DNA of 64,000 nt. It comes from Stella humosa. GTDB lineage: Bacteria > Pseudomonadota > Alphaproteobacteria > ATCC43930 > Allostellaceae. How positions within the stretch are numbered: position 1 is the stretch's first letter; the number at the start of each line of letters is the position of its first letter. This document shows, piece after piece, positions 3,442 to 11,915 of this stretch. The notes below the pieces were generated by a model. It was not told the DNA's origin, made no database searches, and saw nothing but the letters and a program-made list of their open reading frames with translations. The translations under genes were made by a program, and so were the position numbers. The stretch covers positions 2,802,001 through 2,866,000 of the forward strand of contig NZ_AP019700.1 of the NCBI RefSeq assembly GCF_006738645.1, written 5' to 3'.

Positions 3442-3639
3442 ATGAAGATGGGGGGCGCGATGGTTCGACACCTGCATGCACCCGGGAAGCCGCCCGGCTC
3501 CCCGCCGCCTGCCCGCCCCCGCATCCTCGTGCCCGTGAACGACAATCGGCCGCCGCTGCCTGTCCGGCTGCGGCGGCCGATCATGCTGGCGGCGCTGACG
3601 GCGCTGGCCGTGGTCGCCGCCTTCCACTGGATGGTTTAG
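3442..3639 (+). CDS. small hypothetical membrane protein
   Basis: A possible 65-aa protein just downstream of gltA. The N-terminal half is Pro/Arg-rich and basic (PPPARPRILVPVNDNRPPL). It ends in a single hydrophobic segment (IMLAALTALAVVAAFHWMV), which would give a tail-anchored, N-in topology. Starts at 3442, 3448 or 3460 are all possible, and none has a strong ribosome binding site. The hydrophobic tail after a basic stretch and the position behind gltA favour a real gene, but short open frames are common at this GC content. No function is assigned. Confidence 0.42.
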   Translation: MKMGGAMVRHLHAPGKPPGSPPPARPRILVPVNDNRPPLPVRLRRPIMLAALTALAVVAAFHWMV

Positions 3640-3671
3640 GGCGGCGACCAGCTACCAATGGGCGGGAGGGG

Positions 3672-4112
3672 TCAACCCTTCTGGATCAGCTCGATCTTGT
3701 AGCCGTCCGGGTCCTCGACGAAGGCGATGACGCTGCCGCCATGCTTCATCGGGCCGGGAGGCCGCGGAATCTTGACGCCGGCAGTGGCCATGCGGTCGCA
3801 CACGCCATAGATGTCGGCGACGCCGATGGCGATATGGCCGAAGGCATTGCCGATCGTGTAGGGCTCCTTCTGACCCCAGTTGTGGGTCAACTCGAGGACG
3901 GTGTTGCCGCTCTCGTCGCCATAGCCGACGAAGGCCAGCGTGAACTCGCCCGTCGGATAGTCCTTCTTGCGCAGCAGCTTCATCCCGAGCTGCTCGGTGT
4001 AGAAGGTGAGCGAGCGGTCGAGGTCGTACACGCGCAGCATCGTGTGCAGGAAGGACGGCCCCTTGCCGGCCACGGCAGAGGCGGCGGCAGGCGCGGCGGA
4101 GACTTCGTTCAT
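3672..4112 (-). CDS. gloA: lactoylglutathione lyase (glyoxalase I)
   Basis: Converts the hemithioacetal of methylglyoxal and glutathione to S-lactoylglutathione (methylglyoxal detoxification, cytoplasm). It is a single VOC-fold domain of 146 aa. The four metal ligands are present: His in FLHTMLRVYDL, Glu in NTVLELTHNW, His in FGHIAIGV, and Glu in YKIELIQKG at the C-terminus. The start at 4112 was chosen because GGAG lies 9 nt upstream and the family motif FLHTMLRV follows 20 residues in. An upstream in-frame ATG at 4127 would add 5 residues. The gene converges on gltA and is divergent from the gnnA-like gene. Confidence 0.93.
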   Translation of the reverse strand: MNEVSAAPAAASAVAGKGPSFLHTMLRVYDLDRSLTFYTEQLGMKLLRKKDYPTGEFTLAFVGYGDESGNTVLELTHNWGQKEPYTIGNAFGHIAIGVADIYGVCDRMATAGVKIPRPPGPMKHGGSVIAFVEDPDGYKIELIQKG

Positions 4113-4291
4113 GGCATTGGGCTCCATCAGGCAGGAATGGCGTCGGGACCCCATCGTAGCCGGCCCCGGCAAGGCGATAAACCGCGATCTCCGGTCACGG
4201 GATGACACAATCTTTGACCCGATCACGGGGTTACCGCCCATGAGTCCGGCGGCTAGATTGCCGGCCTCTTTCCGTGGCCACTAGCGATCCC

Positions 4292-5251
4292 ATGCCCCAA
4301 CCCGTTCGCTGCGCCGTCATCGGTGCCGGACATATCGGCCGCTTCCATGCCGAGAAATATGCCCGCCACCCATCGGCCAGGCTGGTCGCCGTCATCGACC
4401 CCGATCCCGTCCGCGCCGACCAGGTGGCCCGCCCTCATGGTGCGGCCCCCTGGCCCGACGCGGCCCGGCTGGCGGGACAGGTGGACGCGGTCAGCATCTG
4501 CGCGCCGACGCCATTCCATTTCGCGATCGCGCGCGACTGCATCGCGGCCGGCATCCATGTCCTGGTCGAGAAGCCGATCGCCGTCACGCTGGAAGAGGCC
4601 GACGCCATGATCGCCCAGGCCGACGCCCGCGGCGTCGTCCTGCAGGTCGGCCACCTGGAGCGCTTCTCGATGGCGGGGCTGGGCTATGCCGCGGTGATCG
4701 ACGACCCGGTCTTCGTCGACGCCCGCCGCCTGACCCCGTTCCGCGGCCGCGGCGCCGATGTCAGCGTCGTGCTCGACCTGATGATCCACGACATCGACCT
4801 GGTGACGGCCATCGTCCGCGCCCCGGTGGTAGCCGCATCCGCCTTCGGCCGCCGGGTCGTGTCGGACAGCGAGGACGTGGCCGCGGCCCAACTGCGCTTC
4901 GCCAACGGGGCGGCCGCCACGCTGCTCGCCAGCCGCGTCAGCCCCCAGGCCGAGCGCAGCCTGCGCGTGCTCCAGGGGTCGGGCGAGGTCGCCATCGACT
5001 TGCAAGGCCGCCGCCTGTCGGCCACCCGCGCCTCGGTCCGGGGCGATGCGCCGACGACGATCGAGGCGGCCCAGCCCGACGCCGATCCGCTGGGTGCGCA
5101 GATCGATTCCTTCCTCGCCTGCATCGCCACCGCCGGCCGGCCCGTCGTGGGCGGCCCCGACGGCCGGGCGGCGCTGGCGACCGCGCTGGCCGTCATCCAG
5201 TCCATCCGCAGCGACGGCGCCGCCGTCCCGATCGAGAAGAGCCATGTCTGA
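4292..5251 (+). CDS. gnnA: Gfo/Idh/MocA-family dehydrogenase, probable UDP-GlcNAc 3-dehydrogenase (GnnA-like)
   Basis: NAD(P)-dependent sugar oxidoreductase of 319 aa. It has an N-terminal Rossmann motif (AVIGAGHIGRFHAEKY, residues 8-23), the family EKP motif (LVEKPIAVT, near 91-99), and the substrate-domain sequence HLERF followed by LDLMIHDIDL with the conserved Asp and His. Its stop overlaps the start of the DegT/DnrJ aminotransferase by 8 nt, and the pair runs into the lpxB end of the lpx operon. In Acidithiobacillus, GnnA (this family) oxidises the 3-OH of UDP-GlcNAc and GnnB then aminates it, so the pairing suggests the same job here. An alternative GTG start lies at 4274. A CTAGAT box at 4253-4258 could be a -10. 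Another nucleotide-sugar substrate cannot be excluded. Confidence 0.66.
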   Translation: MPQPVRCAVIGAGHIGRFHAEKYARHPSARLVAVIDPDPVRADQVARPHGAAPWPDAARLAGQVDAVSICAPTPFHFAIARDCIAAGIHVLVEKPIAVTLEEADAMIAQADARGVVLQVGHLERFSMAGLGYAAVIDDPVFVDARRLTPFRGRGADVSVVLDLMIHDIDLVTAIVRAPVVAASAFGRRVVSDSEDVAAAQLRFANGAAATLLASRVSPQAERSLRVLQGSGEVAIDLQGRRLSATRASVRGDAPTTIEAAQPDADPLGAQIDSFLACIATAGRPVVGGPDGRAALATALAVIQSIRSDGAAVPIEKSHV

Positions 5252-6380
5252 CACAATCCCCGCCCCCATCCCGTTCGTCGATATCCCGGGCCAGGTCCGC
5301 CGCCTGCGCGACCGCATCGACGCGCGCGTCCGCCGGGTGCTCGACCATGGCCAATTCATCCTGGGGCCGGAGGTGCGCGAACTGGAGCAGGCGCTGTCCG
5401 ACTATGTCGGCGGCGCCCATGTGGTGACGACCGGCAGCGGCCACGATGCCATCCTGATGGGGCTGATGGCCGAAGGCATCGGCCCGGGCGATGCCGTGTT
5501 CGTGCCGGCCTTCACCTTCGTGTCCACTGCCGAGGCGGTGGCATCGGTCGGTGCCGTACCGATCTTCGTCGACGTCGACGAACACAGCTTCACCATGGAC
5601 CCGCTCGACCTGGAGCGGCGCATCGCCAAGGTGCGCCGCGACGGCACCTGGCGGCCGCGCGCGGTGATGCCCGTCGACATCTTCGGGATGCCGGCCGACT
5701 ATGCGGCGCTGGGCGCGGTTGCCGGGGCGGCCGGGCTGTTCCTGCTGTCGGACGCCGCGCAGAGCTTCGGCGGCACGATCGGCAACCAGCGCGTCGGCCG
5801 CCTGGCCCATGCCACCATGACCAGCTTCTTCCCGGCCAAGCCGCTGGGGGCGGCCGGCGACGGTGGCGCCCTCTTCACCGACGATCCCGCCCGCGCCGAC
5901 ACCTATCGCCGGCTGCGCAACCACGGCCAGGATGCCCGGGGCGAGTGCCTGTCGGTCGGCCTGACCGGTCGGCTCGACACGCTCCAGGCGGCGATCCTGC
6001 TGGTGAAGCTCGAGGCCTTCCCCGACGACCTGATCCGCCGCGAGGCCGCCGCGCGCCGGTACGACGCGGCTCTGGCCCGCCATGTCGCGGTGCCCCATCG
6101 CCCGGCCGACACCACTTGCGCCTGGGCGCTCTACACCATCCTGTCGGACCGCCGCGATGCCATTCGCGCGGCGCTGGCGGCCGAGAACATCCCGAGCCGG
6201 GTCTATTACGAGCAGGCCCTCCACCTGCATGCGGCGTTCGCCGCCTCGTCCGAGGGGCCGGGCTCGTTGCCGGTGACCGAGCGGCTGGGCCAGCGCAACC
6301 TGTCGCTGCCGATCCATGCCGAGCTGGATGCCGCCACCATCGACCGGATCACCGCCATCGTCGCGGCCGCGGCCGGCTGA
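5244..6380 (+). CDS. gnnB: DegT/DnrJ/EryC1-family aminotransferase, probable UDP-GlcNAc3N synthase (GnnB-like)
   Basis: PLP-dependent sugar aminotransferase of 378 aa, fold type I. Visible features are the PLP-phosphate region TGSGHDAILMGL (about residues 63-74), Asp170 in LFLLSDAAQSFGG, which would hold the pyridine nitrogen, and the Schiff-base Lys199 in TSFFPAKPLGAAGDGGA. It lacks the common degradation signs (truncation, loss of the lysine). The start overlaps the upstream dehydrogenase by 8 nt, so the two are probably co-translated. Inferred role: transfer of an amino group (from glutamate in known GnnB) to the 3-keto sugar, giving UDP-GlcNAc3N for LpxA. A 3- or 4-aminosugar for surface polysaccharide is the main alternative. 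Confidence 0.66.
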   Translation: MSDTIPAPIPFVDIPGQVRRLRDRIDARVRRVLDHGQFILGPEVRELEQALSDYVGGAHVVTTGSGHDAILMGLMAEGIGPGDAVFVPAFTFVSTAEAVASVGAVPIFVDVDEHSFTMDPLDLERRIAKVRRDGTWRPRAVMPVDIFGMPADYAALGAVAGAAGLFLLSDAAQSFGGTIGNQRVGRLAHATMTSFFPAKPLGAAGDGGALFTDDPARADTYRRLRNHGQDARGECLSVGLTGRLDTLQAAILLVKLEAFPDDLIRREAAARRYDAALARHVAVPHRPADTTCAWALYTILSDRRDAIRAALAAENIPSRVYYEQALHLHAAFAASSEGPGSLPVTERLGQRNLSLPIHAELDAATIDRITAIVAAAAG

Positions 6381-6381
6381 G

Positions 6382-7638
6382 GTGGCCGCCAGTCGGCAGG
6401 CGCTGCTGCTCGTCCCGACGCTGGGTCTGGTCTATGTCGCCAGCCAGTTCTACCGGGCCACCAACGCGGTCATCGCACCCGACCTGATGCGCGAGCTGCA
6501 TTTGTCGTCGGATGCGATGGGGATGCTGACGGGCGCCTTCTTCTTCGCCTTCGCCCTGGCGCAGATCCCGGTTGGCGTGCTGCTCGATCGCTACGGTCCC
6601 AGGCGGACCAACATGGGGCTGCTGCTGGTGGCGGCCGCGGGCGCGCTCGTCTTCGCGGGCAGCACGTCGGTCGAGGGGCTGATCGCCGGGCGCATCCTGC
6701 TCGGCATCGGCTCGTCGGGCGTGCTGATGGGCTCGATCATGATCTTCGCCCGCTGGTTCCCGCCAGACCGGCTGGCGTCGGCCATCAGCGTCATGGTGGC
6801 GGTGGGTGCCGGCGGGATCATCCTCGCCACCTGGCCGCTCGCGCTGGCGGTGCAGGCAATCGGCTGGCGATCGACGTTCGTCGGCGCCGCCATAGTCACC
6901 GCCTGCCTAGTGCCGCTGCTGGTGTTCCTGGTGCGGGACGGCCCGCCCGGCTGGCAGCCGGCGGGTGGCCGGACGGAGCCGCTGGGCGCCATCCTGCGCG
7001 GCCTGCCGCGGGTCTGGCGCATCCCCCCCATCAAGTACTTTTTCGCCGTCCACCTGACGACCCTGTCGGCGGTGCTGACGGTGCTGGGCCTGTGGGGCGG
7101 CCCCTATCTGGCCGACGTGCACGGGCTGGATGCGGTCGGCCGCGGCCGCATCCTGCTGGCCATGAGCATCGCCTCGATCGCCGGCAACCTGTCCTACGGC
7201 CCGCTCGACCGGATCTTCGACACGCGCAAGCGGCTGGTGCTGTGCGGCGGCTCCGTCACCATCTGTGTGCTGTCGACGCTGGCCCTGCTCCAGGCGCCAC
7301 CCCTGTGGGCCGCCACCCTGCTGTTCATGGCACTCGCCTTCGGCGGCTCCATCACCATCATCCTGCAGACGCACAGCCGCGGCCTCCTGCCCGACAACAT
7401 GGCCGGCCGCGGCCTGACGGTCCTCAACATGTCGACGATGCTGGGGGTGGCGCTGGGGCAGACGATGTCGGGCGTCATCGTCGGCGCCTTCCCGGCCGTC
7501 GACGGCGCCTATCCCGAGGCCGCCTATCGCTGCGTCTTCGCCTACCTCGCCTGTGTTCTGGTACTGGGCCTGCTGGCCTACACGCGCGTGGCCGACGTCC
7601 GCCCGAGCGACCAGCGGCTCAAGACCGCGGCGCGCTGA
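6382..7638 (+). CDS. MFS transporter
   Basis: Major facilitator superfamily permease of 418 aa with about 12 hydrophobic segments. The loop 2-3 signature appears as GVLLDRYGPRRTNMG. The GTG at 6382, directly after the aminotransferase stop, is taken as the start because it begins just before the first hydrophobic segment (LLLVPTLGLVYVASQFYRATN); an upstream ATG would make a long non-hydrophobic overlap. The 3' end overlaps the end of lpxB (opposite strand) by 20 bp. It is probably co-transcribed with gnnA and gnnB. The substrate cannot be read from sequence; a link to lipid A sugars rests only on position. Confidence 0.85.
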   Translation: MAASRQALLLVPTLGLVYVASQFYRATNAVIAPDLMRELHLSSDAMGMLTGAFFFAFALAQIPVGVLLDRYGPRRTNMGLLLVAAAGALVFAGSTSVEGLIAGRILLGIGSSGVLMGSIMIFARWFPPDRLASAISVMVAVGAGGIILATWPLALAVQAIGWRSTFVGAAIVTACLVPLLVFLVRDGPPGWQPAGGRTEPLGAILRGLPRVWRIPPIKYFFAVHLTTLSAVLTVLGLWGGPYLADVHGLDAVGRGRILLAMSIASIAGNLSYGPLDRIFDTRKRLVLCGGSVTICVLSTLALLQAPPLWAATLLFMALAFGGSITIILQTHSRGLLPDNMAGRGLTVLNMSTMLGVALGQTMSGVIVGAFPAVDGAYPEAAYRCVFAYLACVLVLGLLAYTRVADVRPSDQRLKTAAR

Positions 7639-8794
7639 CCAGTTCGAGGATCGCCGCCGCCGCCCGCTCGCTCGGTGCCTCCTCGCCGCCGCCCAGCAGG
7701 CCGATCGCGGTTGCCAGGTCGCGTCGCTGGGCCGCGCGGGCCGTCGGATCGGTCAGCAGCGGCAGCAGGGCGGACACCAGGGCCGTCGGCGTGCAATCGT
7801 CCTGTAGCAGTTCCGGCGCGATCGCGCGATCCATCAGCAGGTTGACCATGGTGGCATAGCGCACCCGCACCTTGCGGCGCACCAGCCAAGCCGTCGCCGC
7901 ATTGACGCTGTAGCCGACGACGAAGGGCGTGCCGCTCAGCGCCAGTTCCAGCGTGACCGTGCCGGATGCCGCCAGTGCGGCATCGCTTGCGGCGAAGGCT
8001 GCCGGCTTGTCGCCCGGTGCCCGCACGATGGCAACCGGCAGCGGCCAGCCCGCGACGGCCTGCTCGACCCGGTCGGCCACCGTCGGCACCGTCGGCAGCA
8101 CAACATGGAGGCCCGGAATACGGCGGCCGAGTTCGGCCACGGCCACGGCAAAGATCGGCAGCAACCGCTTGATCTCCGACCCGCGGCTGCCCGGCAGGAC
8201 GGCCAGGACGGGCGCATCGGCCGCAATGCCGTAGCGGGCGCGGAAAGTCGGGTCCGGCGCGCGGCCGAATCCCTCCTCGATCGCCGGATGGCCGACGAAG
8301 CGGCATTCGATGCCATGCCCGCGGAAGAACTCCGGCTCGAACGGGAACAGCGCCAGCACCCGATCGTACCAGCGCCGCAGCGAGCGTGCCTTGGCCGGTC
8401 GCCACCAGGCCCAGAGCTGCGGAGCCACATAGTGGATCAGCGGGCCCTTGTAGCCCTGCTGGCGCAACTGCCGGGCCAGGCGGAAGTTGAAGCCGGAGGA
8501 ATCGATGGTGACGACCGCCGCCGGCCGGGCGGCCACGATGGCCGCGGCCGTGTCGCGCACCAGACGCAGGATGCGCAGGGCCTGGGGCAGCACCTCGAAC
8601 ACGCCGAAGAGCGACAGCGCCGACAAGGGCACGCGGCTGGCCAGCCCGGCCGCCGCCATGCGCTCGCCGCCGATGCCGTCGAAGGCGACGCGGCCGTCCA
8701 GCCGGCGTGACAGGGCCGCCATCAGCCGCCCGCCGATGGCATCCCCCGATGGCTCGGCCGCCACCAGGAAGATGGTGGGAACCGGCTCCGTCAC
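7619..8794 (-). CDS. lpxB: lipid-A-disaccharide synthase
   Basis: GT19-family glycosyltransferase of 391 aa. It joins UDP-diacyl-GlcN and lipid X to form the beta-1,6 disaccharide of lipid A at the cytoplasmic face of the inner membrane. The N-terminus IFLVAAEPSGDAIGGRLM (residues 8-25) is the family signature. Others are FDGIGGERMAAAG, IDSSGFNFRLARQLR (with the Asp of the DSPEFNF-like motif), and LPGSRGSEIKRLLP. It is the last gene of the long lpx operon, overlaps lpxI by 4 nt (ATGA), and ends 20 bp inside the convergent MFS gene. If the neighbouring gnn pair makes UDP-GlcNAc3N, this enzyme would use amide-linked substrates. Confidence 0.96.
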   Translation of the reverse strand: MTEPVPTIFLVAAEPSGDAIGGRLMAALSRRLDGRVAFDGIGGERMAAAGLASRVPLSALSLFGVFEVLPQALRILRLVRDTAAAIVAARPAAVVTIDSSGFNFRLARQLRQQGYKGPLIHYVAPQLWAWWRPAKARSLRRWYDRVLALFPFEPEFFRGHGIECRFVGHPAIEEGFGRAPDPTFRARYGIAADAPVLAVLPGSRGSEIKRLLPIFAVAVAELGRRIPGLHVVLPTVPTVADRVEQAVAGWPLPVAIVRAPGDKPAAFAASDAALAASGTVTLELALSGTPFVVGYSVNAATAWLVRRKVRVRYATMVNLLMDRAIAPELLQDDCTPTALVSALLPLLTDPTARAAQRRDLATAIGLLGGGEEAPSERAAAAILELVSAPRS

Positions 8795-9618
8795 GCAGCC
8801 GGCAAGGGCGGGATGCCAACCAGGAACAACCCGGCCGCGTCGGCAGCGGCCACCACTGCCGCGCGGTCGACGACGAGCGCGCCGCCAGCTTCCACGGCTA
8901 TGCCGGACAGGCCGGCCGCGGCCGCGCGGGCCACGGTCGCCTCGCCGATCGTCGGCAGGTCGACCCGGCGCTCCTGCTGCGGCTTCTTCATCTTGACCAG
9001 CACGCCCCCGGGGCCCGGCAGTCGCAGGGCGGCCGCGCGGTCCAACATGGCATCGGTGCCCTCCACGGCCTCGATCGCCAGGATCGTCCCGGCCTGCACG
9101 ACGACGCCCTGGCCGACATCGAGGCGGCCAAGCGCCGTCGCCACCTCACGGCCACGGGCAATGTCGGTATCGGCAACGTCGTCGGGCCGGTGGCGACCCA
9201 GCGGGCCGGTCGCGATCAGCAGGCTGGCCAGGATCTGGTCGATTCCGACCACCCGGAATCCCTCGCGCTCCAGTTCGGCCACGATGGCCGACAGCAGACC
9301 GTCGTCCCCGGCTGCGCGGATGCCGATGCGCGCCAACAGCCGGGTGCCGGTCCAGTCGGGCCGGAGCGCGGCCAAGCCGGGCCGGCGGACGCGGCCGACC
9401 ATCACGACCTCCTCCACCCCGTTGCGGCGCAACAGGTCGAGCGCGGTGCCGATCGCCCCCATTCGGACCATGGCGCTTGGCCCGCAGGCCAGCGTCTCGG
9501 CCTCGGTCTCGCCGTCCAGGCCCAGGATGAAATAGGGTCGTCCGTCGTCCCGGCAGGCGGCGGCCGCCTGCCTCGGCAGCGGCCCGCTGCCGGCGATGAT
9601 GCCGAGCTTACCCGCCAT
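8791..9618 (-). CDS. lpxI: UDP-2,3-diacylglucosamine pyrophosphatase LpxI
   Basis: Hydrolyses UDP-2,3-diacyl-GlcN to lipid X and UMP, the fourth step of lipid A synthesis. It is the alphaproteobacterial substitute for LpxH and is unrelated to it in fold. The protein has 275 aa with the family start KLGIIAGSGPLPRQAA, the central VVMVGRVRRPGL, and the C-terminal domain with AVEGTDAMLDRAA, VLVKMKKPQQERRVDLPTIG and GIAVEAGGALVVDR. Both LpxI domains are complete. It overlaps lpxA by 11 nt and lpxB by 4 nt, so the three are probably coupled. Confidence 0.94.
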   Translation of the reverse strand: MAGKLGIIAGSGPLPRQAAAACRDDGRPYFILGLDGETEAETLACGPSAMVRMGAIGTALDLLRRNGVEEVVMVGRVRRPGLAALRPDWTGTRLLARIGIRAAGDDGLLSAIVAELEREGFRVVGIDQILASLLIATGPLGRHRPDDVADTDIARGREVATALGRLDVGQGVVVQAGTILAIEAVEGTDAMLDRAAALRLPGPGGVLVKMKKPQQERRVDLPTIGEATVARAAAAGLSGIAVEAGGALVVDRAAVVAAADAAGLFLVGIPPLPAA

Positions 9619-10405
9619 TCGCCCGCGGCTGGCAGATCGAGCGGGTCGAATCCTCGCGGATGAAATTCACGATATCCATGACCGGCGGGTGGTCCTCGAA
9701 CAGCTCGGCCACATCGACCAGCCGCTCGGCCATCGTGCCTTCCTGCGCGAAGAGCAGCCGATAGGCGCTGCGCAGCCGGTGCACGTCCTCCCGGGAGAAA
9801 CCGTGCCGCTTCAAGCCGACGACGTTCAGTCCGGACAGGCGCCCGCGATCGCCCATCACCGAGCCGTACGGGATGACGTCGCTCTCCACCCCCGACATGC
9901 CGCCGATCATCGCATGGTGGCCGATGCGCACGAACTGATGGATGGCGCAGAGGCCGCCCAGATAGGCATGGTCGTCGACATGGACGTGCCCGCCCAGGGT
10001 CGCGTTGTTTGCCAAGATGACGTGGTTGCCGATGGCGCAGTCATGGGCGACATGCGTGCCGACCATGAACAGGCCGTTGTCGCCGACGCGGGTGGCGCCG
10101 GTGCCAAGCGGCGTGCCCGGATGCATGGTCACATGCTCGCGGATCTGGTTGTTGCTGCCGATGTCGAGCGTAACCCGCTCGCCCTTGTAGCGCAGGTGCT
10201 GCGGCGGCAAGCCAAGGGCGGCGAAGGGAAAGACCCGGGTGCCAGCACCGATGGTCGTATGGCCTTCGACCACGACATGAGAAACGAGCGAGACGCCGTC
10301 GCCAAGCCGGACATTCTCGCCGACGCAGCAGAACGGGCCGATCGTGACGCCGGCACCAAGTTCGGCGCCCGGGGCCACGACGGCCATCGGATGAATCTGG
10401 GTCAT
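9608..10405 (-). CDS. lpxA: UDP-N-acetylglucosamine acyltransferase LpxA
   Basis: First committed acyl transfer of lipid A synthesis, from hydroxyacyl-ACP to position 3 of the UDP-sugar. It is a 265-aa left-handed beta-helix built from hexapeptide repeats (MAVVAPGAELGAGVTIGPFC), with a C-terminal helical domain (GLKRHGFSREDVHRLRSAY). The active-site His is in THVAHDCAIGN and the conserved HQF in LCAIHQFVRIG. Because gnnA- and gnnB-like genes are close by, the natural acceptor may be UDP-GlcNAc3N (amide formation) instead of UDP-GlcNAc. The sequence alone does not decide this. It lies between fabZ and lpxI in the operon. Confidence 0.96.
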   Translation of the reverse strand: MTQIHPMAVVAPGAELGAGVTIGPFCCVGENVRLGDGVSLVSHVVVEGHTTIGAGTRVFPFAALGLPPQHLRYKGERVTLDIGSNNQIREHVTMHPGTPLGTGATRVGDNGLFMVGTHVAHDCAIGNHVILANNATLGGHVHVDDHAYLGGLCAIHQFVRIGHHAMIGGMSGVESDVIPYGSVMGDRGRLSGLNVVGLKRHGFSREDVHRLRSAYRLLFAQEGTMAERLVDVAELFEDHPPVMDIVNFIREDSTRSICQPRANGG

Positions 10406-10426: not shown

Positions 10427-10891
10427 CTAGTCGAGAATCATGGCTGCATAGGTGGCCTCGGCGACAAGATGGCCGTCCACCTTGGCTTCGGCAGAGAACT
10501 TCCACACGTTGCCGCGGCTGCGTTCCTTGCGGACATGGACGCGCAGTTGATCGCCCGGGACGACCGGCTTGCGGAAGCGCGCGCCATCGACCGACATGAA
10601 GTAGACGAGCTTGCCTTCCGAGGCAGCACCCAGGGTGTGGACCACCAGCACGGCCGACGTCTGGGCCATCGCCTCGATGATCAGGACCCCCGGCATCACC
10701 GGCCTGGTCGGAAAATGGCCCTGGAAGAACGGCTCGTTGATCGAGACGTTCTTGACCCCGACGCAGCCTTCGTTCGCCACCACGTCGACCACCCGGTCGA
10801 TCATGAGAAATGGATAGCGGTGCGGGATCATCGCCATCACGCGCTCGATGTCGATGGTCAATCCGTTGACCGCAGCCTCCTTGCCGTCCAT
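10427..10891 (-). CDS. fabZ: 3-hydroxyacyl-[ACP] dehydratase FabZ
   Basis: Dehydrates 3-hydroxyacyl-ACP in fatty acid elongation and so competes with LpxA and LpxD for hydroxyacyl-ACP. It is a 154-aa hot-dog-fold protein with catalytic His in [14 protein letters not shown] and catalytic Glu in [17 protein letters not shown]. The N-terminus has about 10 residues before the conserved region, and the start at 10891 was kept because it lies 4 nt from the lpxD stop. It sits between lpxD and lpxA, the standard lpxD-fabZ-lpxA order. Confidence 0.97.
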
Positions 10892-10895
10892 GCCC

Positions 10896-11915
10896 CTAAG
10901 CGCCTTTCCCTTTCGTCATCCGGCGAAGCAGGGCGCTCTGCCGAAGGAACTCCGGCAGCGGAATCGCCGGTGTTCCGCCGACGGTCGAGCCATCGGGAAG
11001 ATCCCGCATCACGCCGCTCTGCGCCGCGATCCGGCAGCCGTCACCGATCCGGATATGTCCCGACATGCCCACCTGGCCGCCCACCATCACATTGTCGCCA
11101 AGGACGGTACTGCCCGATATACCGACCAGGGCGGCGATGATGCATCCGCGACCGAGGCGGACGTTGTGCCCGATCTGCACCAGATTATCAATGAAACAGC
11201 CAGGGCCGATGATCGTGTCGCCGATCGTCCCGCGATCGATCGTGCTGTTGGCGCCGATCTCCACATCGTCATGGACGATGACGCGGCCGAGTTGCGGCAT
11301 CTTCACATGCGCGTCCCGGCCGGGTACCACGCCGAACCCGTCCTGACCGATGCGCACGCCAGGGTACAACGTCACCCGGCATCCGATCACCGCGTGGCTG
11401 ACGCTGGCACCGGCGCCGATACGGCTGTCCGCGCCGATGCTGCAGCCGCGGCCGACGACGGCGTTGGGGCCGATGACCACGCCGGCCGCGATCCGGGCGC
11501 CGGCGCCGACATGGGCGCCGGCCGCGATCTCGCAGCCGTGGTCGATCTCGGCCGTCGCGTCGACGAACGCCAGCGGCGATATGCCGGCCGCAACGGGGTC
11601 GGGGGGATGAAAGGCTGCCGCCGCGATCGCGAATGCCCGCTGCGGCGCCCGGGTGACCAGCAGCGCCATGCCGGCCGGCGCGCGACCGACGACATCGGGG
11701 TGGAGGAAGCAGGCGCCCCCTGCGGACAGTCCGAGCGCATCCAGGTAGCGGCGATCCTCGACGAAGATCACGTCGCCGGCCTCGGCCTCGGCGACCGCGG
11801 CCACATCGTGGAAAAGATCGCCCCGCTGACCCGGCCGTGCATCGGCGCCGGTCAACCGGGCAAGATCATCCAGGGTCCACGGACCGGCACGCCGGTGAAA
11901 ACGTTGATCGGCCAT
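10896..11915 (-). CDS. lpxD: UDP-3-O-acylglucosamine N-acyltransferase LpxD
   Basis: Adds the second hydroxyacyl chain (N-2) in lipid A synthesis. It has 339 aa: an N-terminal uridine-binding domain ([12 protein letters not shown], then [13 protein letters not shown] and GACFLHPDV) and a hexapeptide-repeat beta-helix from about residue 110 ([20 protein letters not shown]). The catalytic-His region is within [18 protein letters not shown] short basic C-terminus follows ([16 protein letters not shown]). It lies 22 nt downstream of skp and 4 nt upstream of fabZ. Confidence 0.96.

Follow-up and report, generated by a model that had tools for sequence, protein, structure and literature searches.

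Do the two genes for a predicted dehydrogenase (gnnA) and a predicted aminotransferase (gnnB) that lie beside the lpx genes of Stella humosa serve the synthesis of lipid A? They are found in a 64,000-nucleotide stretch of this alphaproteobacterium (assembly GCF_006738645.1, contig NZ_AP019700.1, positions 2,802,001 to 2,866,000), which is called the window here and from whose first nucleotide positions are counted. The favoured answer, given a probability of about 0.86, is that the pair makes UDP-GlcNAc3N, the 3-amino derivative of uridine diphosphate N-acetylglucosamine (UDP-GlcNAc), for lipid A, which would then contain 2,3-diamino-2,3-dideoxyglucose (GlcN3N) with amide-linked chains, and that a major facilitator superfamily (MFS) gene downstream of the pair is an accessory rider. 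The pathway is already known from other bacteria, and the locus adds another member; the original work (Sweet 2004) is cited in PMC8036547 and PMC5644692.

In the proposed route, GnnA would oxidize the 3-hydroxyl of UDP-GlcNAc in a reaction dependent on nicotinamide adenine dinucleotide (NAD+), and GnnB would transaminate the 3-ketone to UDP-GlcNAc3N. LpxA, for which the genome has a single match, would transfer a 3-hydroxyacyl chain onto the 3-amino group, LpxC (also one match) and LpxD would prepare and acylate position 2, and LpxI and LpxB would carry the product onward to a lipid A with GlcN3N and amide-linked primary chains. A GlcN3N-containing lipid A had been proposed in an earlier sequence-only reading of this DNA, and is the best prediction from the identity of GnnA, its partnership with GnnB and the lpx linkage; as a whole, that first interpretation is partly supported.

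The dehydrogenase

The best solved relative of the dehydrogenase is 7bvj (176 bits), the title of which names UDP-N-acetylglucosamine 3-dehydrogenase GnnA of Acidithiobacillus ferrooxidans; the next protein reaches 70 bits and WlbA (3q2k) 53 bits. Identity to A. ferrooxidans GnnA is 40.8% over 294 amino acids, and five lpx-linked GnnAs of other classes (L164, L165, L166, L169, L170) are 36–45% identical to it. The predicted model (predicted local distance difference test score, pLDDT, 93.4) also finds this enzyme first among solved structures (Z 40.5, 1.5 Å, 299 residues), followed by the next protein (Z 37.4) and WlbA of Bordetella (Z 34.9). It has the Gfo/Idh fold, and the conserved Lys94, Asp162, His166 and Asp167 are all kept. 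These residues, like Lys199, Asp170 and Gln173 in GnnB, are presumably catalytic. The study behind 7bvj we take to be Manissorn 2020, which PMC10509195 lists among its references.

Within its own genome the protein is the best of 11 family matches to a UDP-GlcNAc 3-dehydrogenase model (182 bits; second match 94). Against NCBIfam NF040723 (UDP-GlcNAcDh_Arch) it scores 182.5 bits, under the curated 450-bit cut-off, which excludes that equivalog only, the model being archaeal by name. A quick, arbitrarily rooted tree (84 GnnA rows) divides into 63 rows, the window and all rows with a nearby lpx gene among them, and 21 others; within the larger set the window groups with its genus, which is as far as its position is resolved. 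By sequence, model and genome context, the dehydrogenase is a predicted GnnA, and the comparison with the characterized enzyme, by sequence and by structure model, bears out the sequence-only reading in this respect.

The aminotransferase

The predicted model of GnnB (pLDDT 94.1) has the DegT fold, with Lys199, the lysine for pyridoxal phosphate (PLP), Asp170 and Gln173 kept. Its nearest solved structures are a DegT enzyme of Brucella abortus, 4qgr (47% identity, Z 54.1), and then WbpE (43%, Z 52.1). Brucella lipid A contains diaminoglucose, according to PMC10787603.

In the best tree (78 rows, with four rows as outgroup), alphaproteobacterial GnnB-like proteins and 4qgr (47 rows) are separate from 20 rows of lpx-linked GnnBs from other classes, all of which except L221 have an lpx gene in the fetched stretch. 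A single clade uniting both groups is not rejected (approximately unbiased test, p 0.151). The window nevertheless shares Tyr321 and His327 with the lpx-linked group, where both are present in 24/24 rows. Of the remaining rows that lie close to a gnnA, a set that includes the window and its genus, 23/24 have Tyr321 and 24/24 His327; for GnnBs located elsewhere in genomes with GnnA the counts are 11/12 and 10/12. The two positions are His/Asn in WbpE and Pcryo_0616 and His/His in four paralogue rows, a distinction that was drawn post hoc and has two WbpE-type sequences on the WbpE side.

Co-occurrence and gene context

Co-occurrence was followed in a class sample of 289 genomes, for which a completeness of at least 90 was requested, at a single setting of thresholds chosen by the analyst (GnnA, E≤1e-40; GnnB, E≤1e-70). 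GnnA was found in 49 of them, with one match each, and GnnB in 48 of these 49 vs 59 of the 240 genomes without GnnA (Fisher p 1.6e-23, uncorrected for relatedness). In the sole GnnA genome without GnnB at this threshold (G083), a 34% identical DegT gene adjoins gnnA. The aminotransferase is the usual genomic partner of GnnA.

Flanks of gnnA, fetched from the 48 other genomes with up to 6 kb per side, several of them on contigs that end early, hold a GnnB-like gene (E≤1e-12, a count that takes in G083) in 14/49 cases and lpxB in 6/49, the window being counted in both. The block Glo1-gnnA-gnnB-lpxB is present in the three other genus genomes examined (G001, G002, G003), and because it is kept there the arrangement is more than chance. 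In two loci of another family (L062, gnnA 6001–6957; L076, 2877–3782) gnnA alone occupies the same Glo1-lpxB slot, converging on lpxB, and in a third (L068, gnnA 6016–6912) it adjoins lpxB and converges on it; gnnB lies elsewhere in these three genomes. Separately, G111 encodes LpxB (46%) and an LpxD-like protein (41%) no more than 4 kb from gnnA (L070, 2029–4347), with its LpxA match on another contig.

Outside the class, the best 80 of at least 588 confirmed gnnA relatives were named, as ranked by an lpx-linked query; the fetched stretch contains an lpx gene in 59 and gnnB in 38 of these 80. Two orders recur. One is lpxD-fabZ-lpxA-gnnA-gnnB-lpxB (L166, L167, Limnohabitans and Geobacter-type loci), the other lpxA-lpxI-gnnA-lpxB (L245, L249, L252, L255, L258, L259, L261, L263, L266, L274), which comes mostly from Desulfobacterales and other deltaproteobacterial-type metagenome-assembled genomes and has no gnnB in the fetched stretch. 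Legionella has gnnA before lpxB in 5/5 named species among the 80, also with no gnnB in the stretch, and its lipid A carries GlcN3N (PMC7867332). Acidithiobacillus was not found among these best 80, and its GnnA was compared through PDB 7bvj. In one genus (that of G637, L166 and L167, taken as Limnohabitans), gnnA (E≤1e-60) is found in 14/40 genomes, including 11 of the 24 more complete ones, and the trait is therefore patchy within a genus.

Evidence against and alternative pathways

Several observations weigh against the favoured explanation. GnnA (E≤1e-40) was not found in G004 and G005, the two sampled genomes of the order's other family, and the trait is therefore patchy; GnnB (E≤1e-60) is present in 17/41 relatives, with more than 80% identity in the genus only, which counts against ubiquity. 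Linkage to lpx is favoured in the 80-locus set because an lpx-linked query ranked it. At position 67 of GnnB, where 79/87 aligned rows have Thr, the window and the three other genus genomes have His, Gly66 being kept. WbpE, Pcryo_0616 and L260 join the alphaproteobacterial GnnB clade in the best tree (Shimodaira–Hasegawa-like approximate likelihood ratio test, SH-aLRT, 99). Tyr321 occurs also in 12/12 GnnB-like proteins from genomes without a GnnA match. LpxA carries no proven amide signature, and its sequence gave no reading of its selectivity.

The active-site residues, which the sequence-only reading had called intact, are so at the four positions of GnnA and at Lys199, Asp170 and Gln173 of GnnB, with His67 as the departure. 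Residues 66–67 (GT) we take to be the motif for the phosphate of PLP. His67 is unusual, yet it is conserved in the genus and is therefore probably not a sign of decay. The eight rows without Thr67 include two repeats of one gene; in L075 the position is Arg.

The alternative that survives best concerns the extent of amide linkage. The pair would work as GnnA/GnnB, and LpxA would take both UDP-GlcNAc and UDP-GlcNAc3N, giving hybrid GlcN3N-GlcN backbones or a mixture in which some of the 3-chains are ester-linked. As a candidate mark of amide selectivity, the LpxA residue at E. coli position 142 was considered. In E. coli this is Ala, presumably next to the active-site His144; the equivalent Gly138 is found in 33/34 genomes with GnnA vs 10/29 with neither GnnA nor GnnB (class-sample rows compared), a difference for which the supported branches offer two independent pairs, not enough to separate it from phylogeny. 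In gnnA loci of other classes the column is Ala in 22/27. The residue was rejected as diagnostic and is a lead only. LpxA matched the solved structures 3hsq and 3r0s, which we take to be the Leptospira and Campylobacter enzymes.

Granulibacter, for which the authors name a gnnA homologue, has GlcN3N and GlcN together in its lipid A (PMC8036547), L. israelensis and L. bozemanae have mixed backbones (PMC7867332), and Capnocytophaga, where gnnA/gnnB homologues are likewise named by the authors, has a hybrid GlcN3N/GlcN backbone (PMC3342949). The Capnocytophaga hybrid is tied by its authors to two lpxA genes (PMC3342949). Stella has one LpxA match, and any hybrid would therefore need a relaxed LpxA. 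A paper search on Stella gave none about its lipid A, judged by title and abstract. A hybrid or mixed lipid A, which is a sub-case of the favoured explanation and not exclusive with it, has a real chance, somewhat short of even. The four amide-linked primary chains of the sequence-only reading are a possible outcome that goes further than the evidence, hybrid backbones being published in bacteria with gnnA/gnnB homologues and the LpxA sequence giving no verdict on selectivity.

The descent of the aminotransferase is a second matter. In the best tree it groups with WbpE and apart from the lpx-linked clade, and strict GnnB orthology is therefore not established, although it has Tyr321/His327 in common with the lpx-linked GnnBs. 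The occurrence of Tyr321 in genomes lacking GnnA means that it is no proof of partnership; the Tyr321/His327 signature marks clades, not GnnA partnership as such. L260 joins WbpE in the tree and adjoins a gnnA, yet has Tyr/His. It is conceivable, though rather doubtful, that the alphaproteobacterial GlcN3N pathway combines an old lpx-linked GnnA with a separately recruited WbpE-type aminotransferase, Tyr321/His327 being convergent with lpx-linked GnnB. If so, Tyr321 would be a specificity switch from 3-keto-GlcNAcA, the uronic acid, to 3-keto-GlcNAc. No paper on gnnA with lpxB in an operon, or on WbpE together with GnnB, was found in the open-licence literature, and the two-clade picture may therefore be undescribed so far within it.

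The grouping with WbpE, at 43% identity, lends something to the idea of a role in surface polysaccharide, for which the pair would supply a 3-amino sugar in the way that WbpB/WbpE supply UDP-GlcNAc(3NAc)A. This is improbable: the dehydrogenase is far nearer GnnA than WlbA (176 vs 53 bits; Z 40.5 vs 34.9), residues 321/327 are Tyr/His as against the His/Asn of WbpE and Pcryo_0616, and lpxB is the only sugar-transferase gene beside the pair. The genome's only other strong DegT match (372 bits; the third has 45) sits among epimerase and glycosyltransferase genes.

The MFS gene looks like an accessory, optional passenger. Its GTG start at 6382 is 1 base past the gnnB stop, its frame ends at 7638, and membership in the same unit, as the sequence-only reading had it, is possible as co-transcription; by distribution it is accessory. 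Proteins similar to it (E≤1e-40) are found in 88/289 class genomes. A working part in the pathway, such as export or import of an amino-sugar intermediate, was rejected as highly unlikely, for although the gene follows gnnB so closely and is kept at the locus in G001 and G003, the G002 locus has gnnAB without it (best match in that genome, 32% identity), 3 of the 151 fetched loci have it near gnnA and two of those belong to this genus, and the pathway substrates are cytosolic nucleotide sugars.

Features of the locus

The features are listed in Table 1. The frames of gnnA and gnnB share 8 nucleotides (5244–5251), as had been read, and lpxB, lpxI, lpxA and lpxD are nearby as claimed, all on the minus strand between 7619 and 11915. 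The pair had also been said to run into lpxB. A tail-to-tail overlap of 20 nucleotides exists, via the end of the MFS gene, but the two units are convergent on opposite strands: the gnnA-gnnB-MFS unit faces the lpx operon, and the pair is no part of it.

Table 1. Genes at the gnnA-gnnB locus of the window.
Feature	Position	Strand	Evidence or relative
gnnA, predicted NAD-dependent UDP-GlcNAc 3-dehydrogenase (Gfo/Idh/MocA)	4292–5251	+	nearest solved relative 7bvj/7bvk
gnnB, predicted PLP-dependent 3-aminotransferase (DegT family), alphaproteobacterial clade	5244–6380	+	nearest solved relatives 4qgr, WbpE
MFS transporter gene, possibly co-transcribed, accessory	6382–7638	+	PF07690
lpxB, lipid-A-disaccharide synthase, convergent with MFS gene	7619–8794	-	TIGR00215 above cut-off
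lpxI, UDP-2,3-diacylglucosamine pyrophosphatase	8791–9618	-	LpxI_N and LpxI_C above cut-off; NCBIfam LpxI equivalog below its cut-off
lpxA, predicted acceptor enzyme for UDP-GlcNAc3N	9608–10405	-	the genome's only LpxA match
fabZ	10427–10891	-	profile match
lpxD, N-acyltransferase	10896–11915	-	profile match
Glyoxalase I (Glo1) gene, divergent from gnnA, marker of the conserved slot	3672–4121	-	profile match

The GC content of 1-kb blocks is 0.71–0.73 over gnnA, gnnB, the MFS gene and lpxB, and 0.63–0.73 over the first 16 kb; it gives no sign of a recent transfer of the pair. A pattern search of 3600–8000 found no sigma-70-type promoters or terminators, a result that is uninformative in such DNA.

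Relation to known systems and significance

The Stella pair resembles GnnA/GnnB of A. ferrooxidans in the GnnA family, fold and conserved residues and in having a DegT aminotransferase as partner. It differs in standing opposite to the lpx strand and converging on lpxB, and in a GnnB of the alphaproteobacterial clade; the two systems were compared through GnnA alone. The lpxA-gnnA-gnnB-lpxB operons (Limnohabitans L228, L229, L231; L166, L167, L169; Geobacter-type L218, L220, L222) have a GnnA that is 45% identical (L166) and a GnnB with the same Tyr321/His327, whereas their pair is colinear inside the lpx operon and the best tree puts their GnnB in a different clade. The B. abortus enzyme 4qgr is the top match to GnnB by structure and sequence and belongs to the same clade; its title names no function, and the likeness is one of sequence and structure alone. 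The WbpB/WlbA and WbpE pathway, in which UDP-3-keto-GlcNAcA is formed, has the same two-step chemistry as GnnA/GnnB and a related aminotransferase, but its dehydrogenases are distant (Z 34.9 and 33.5 vs 40.5) and its 321/327 residues differ.

Amide linkage makes lipid A chemically tougher than ester linkage does. In Campylobacter, inactivation of gnnA/gnnB is reported to give higher TLR4 (Toll-like receptor 4) activation and higher sensitivity to antimicrobial peptides (PMC8036547). The locus adds to the Alphaproteobacteria for which GlcN3N lipid A is predicted, and the related loci show that gnnA can adjoin lpxB even where gnnB is elsewhere in the genome. The residues at 321/327 offer a testable signature to separate GnnB-type from WbpE-type aminotransferases.

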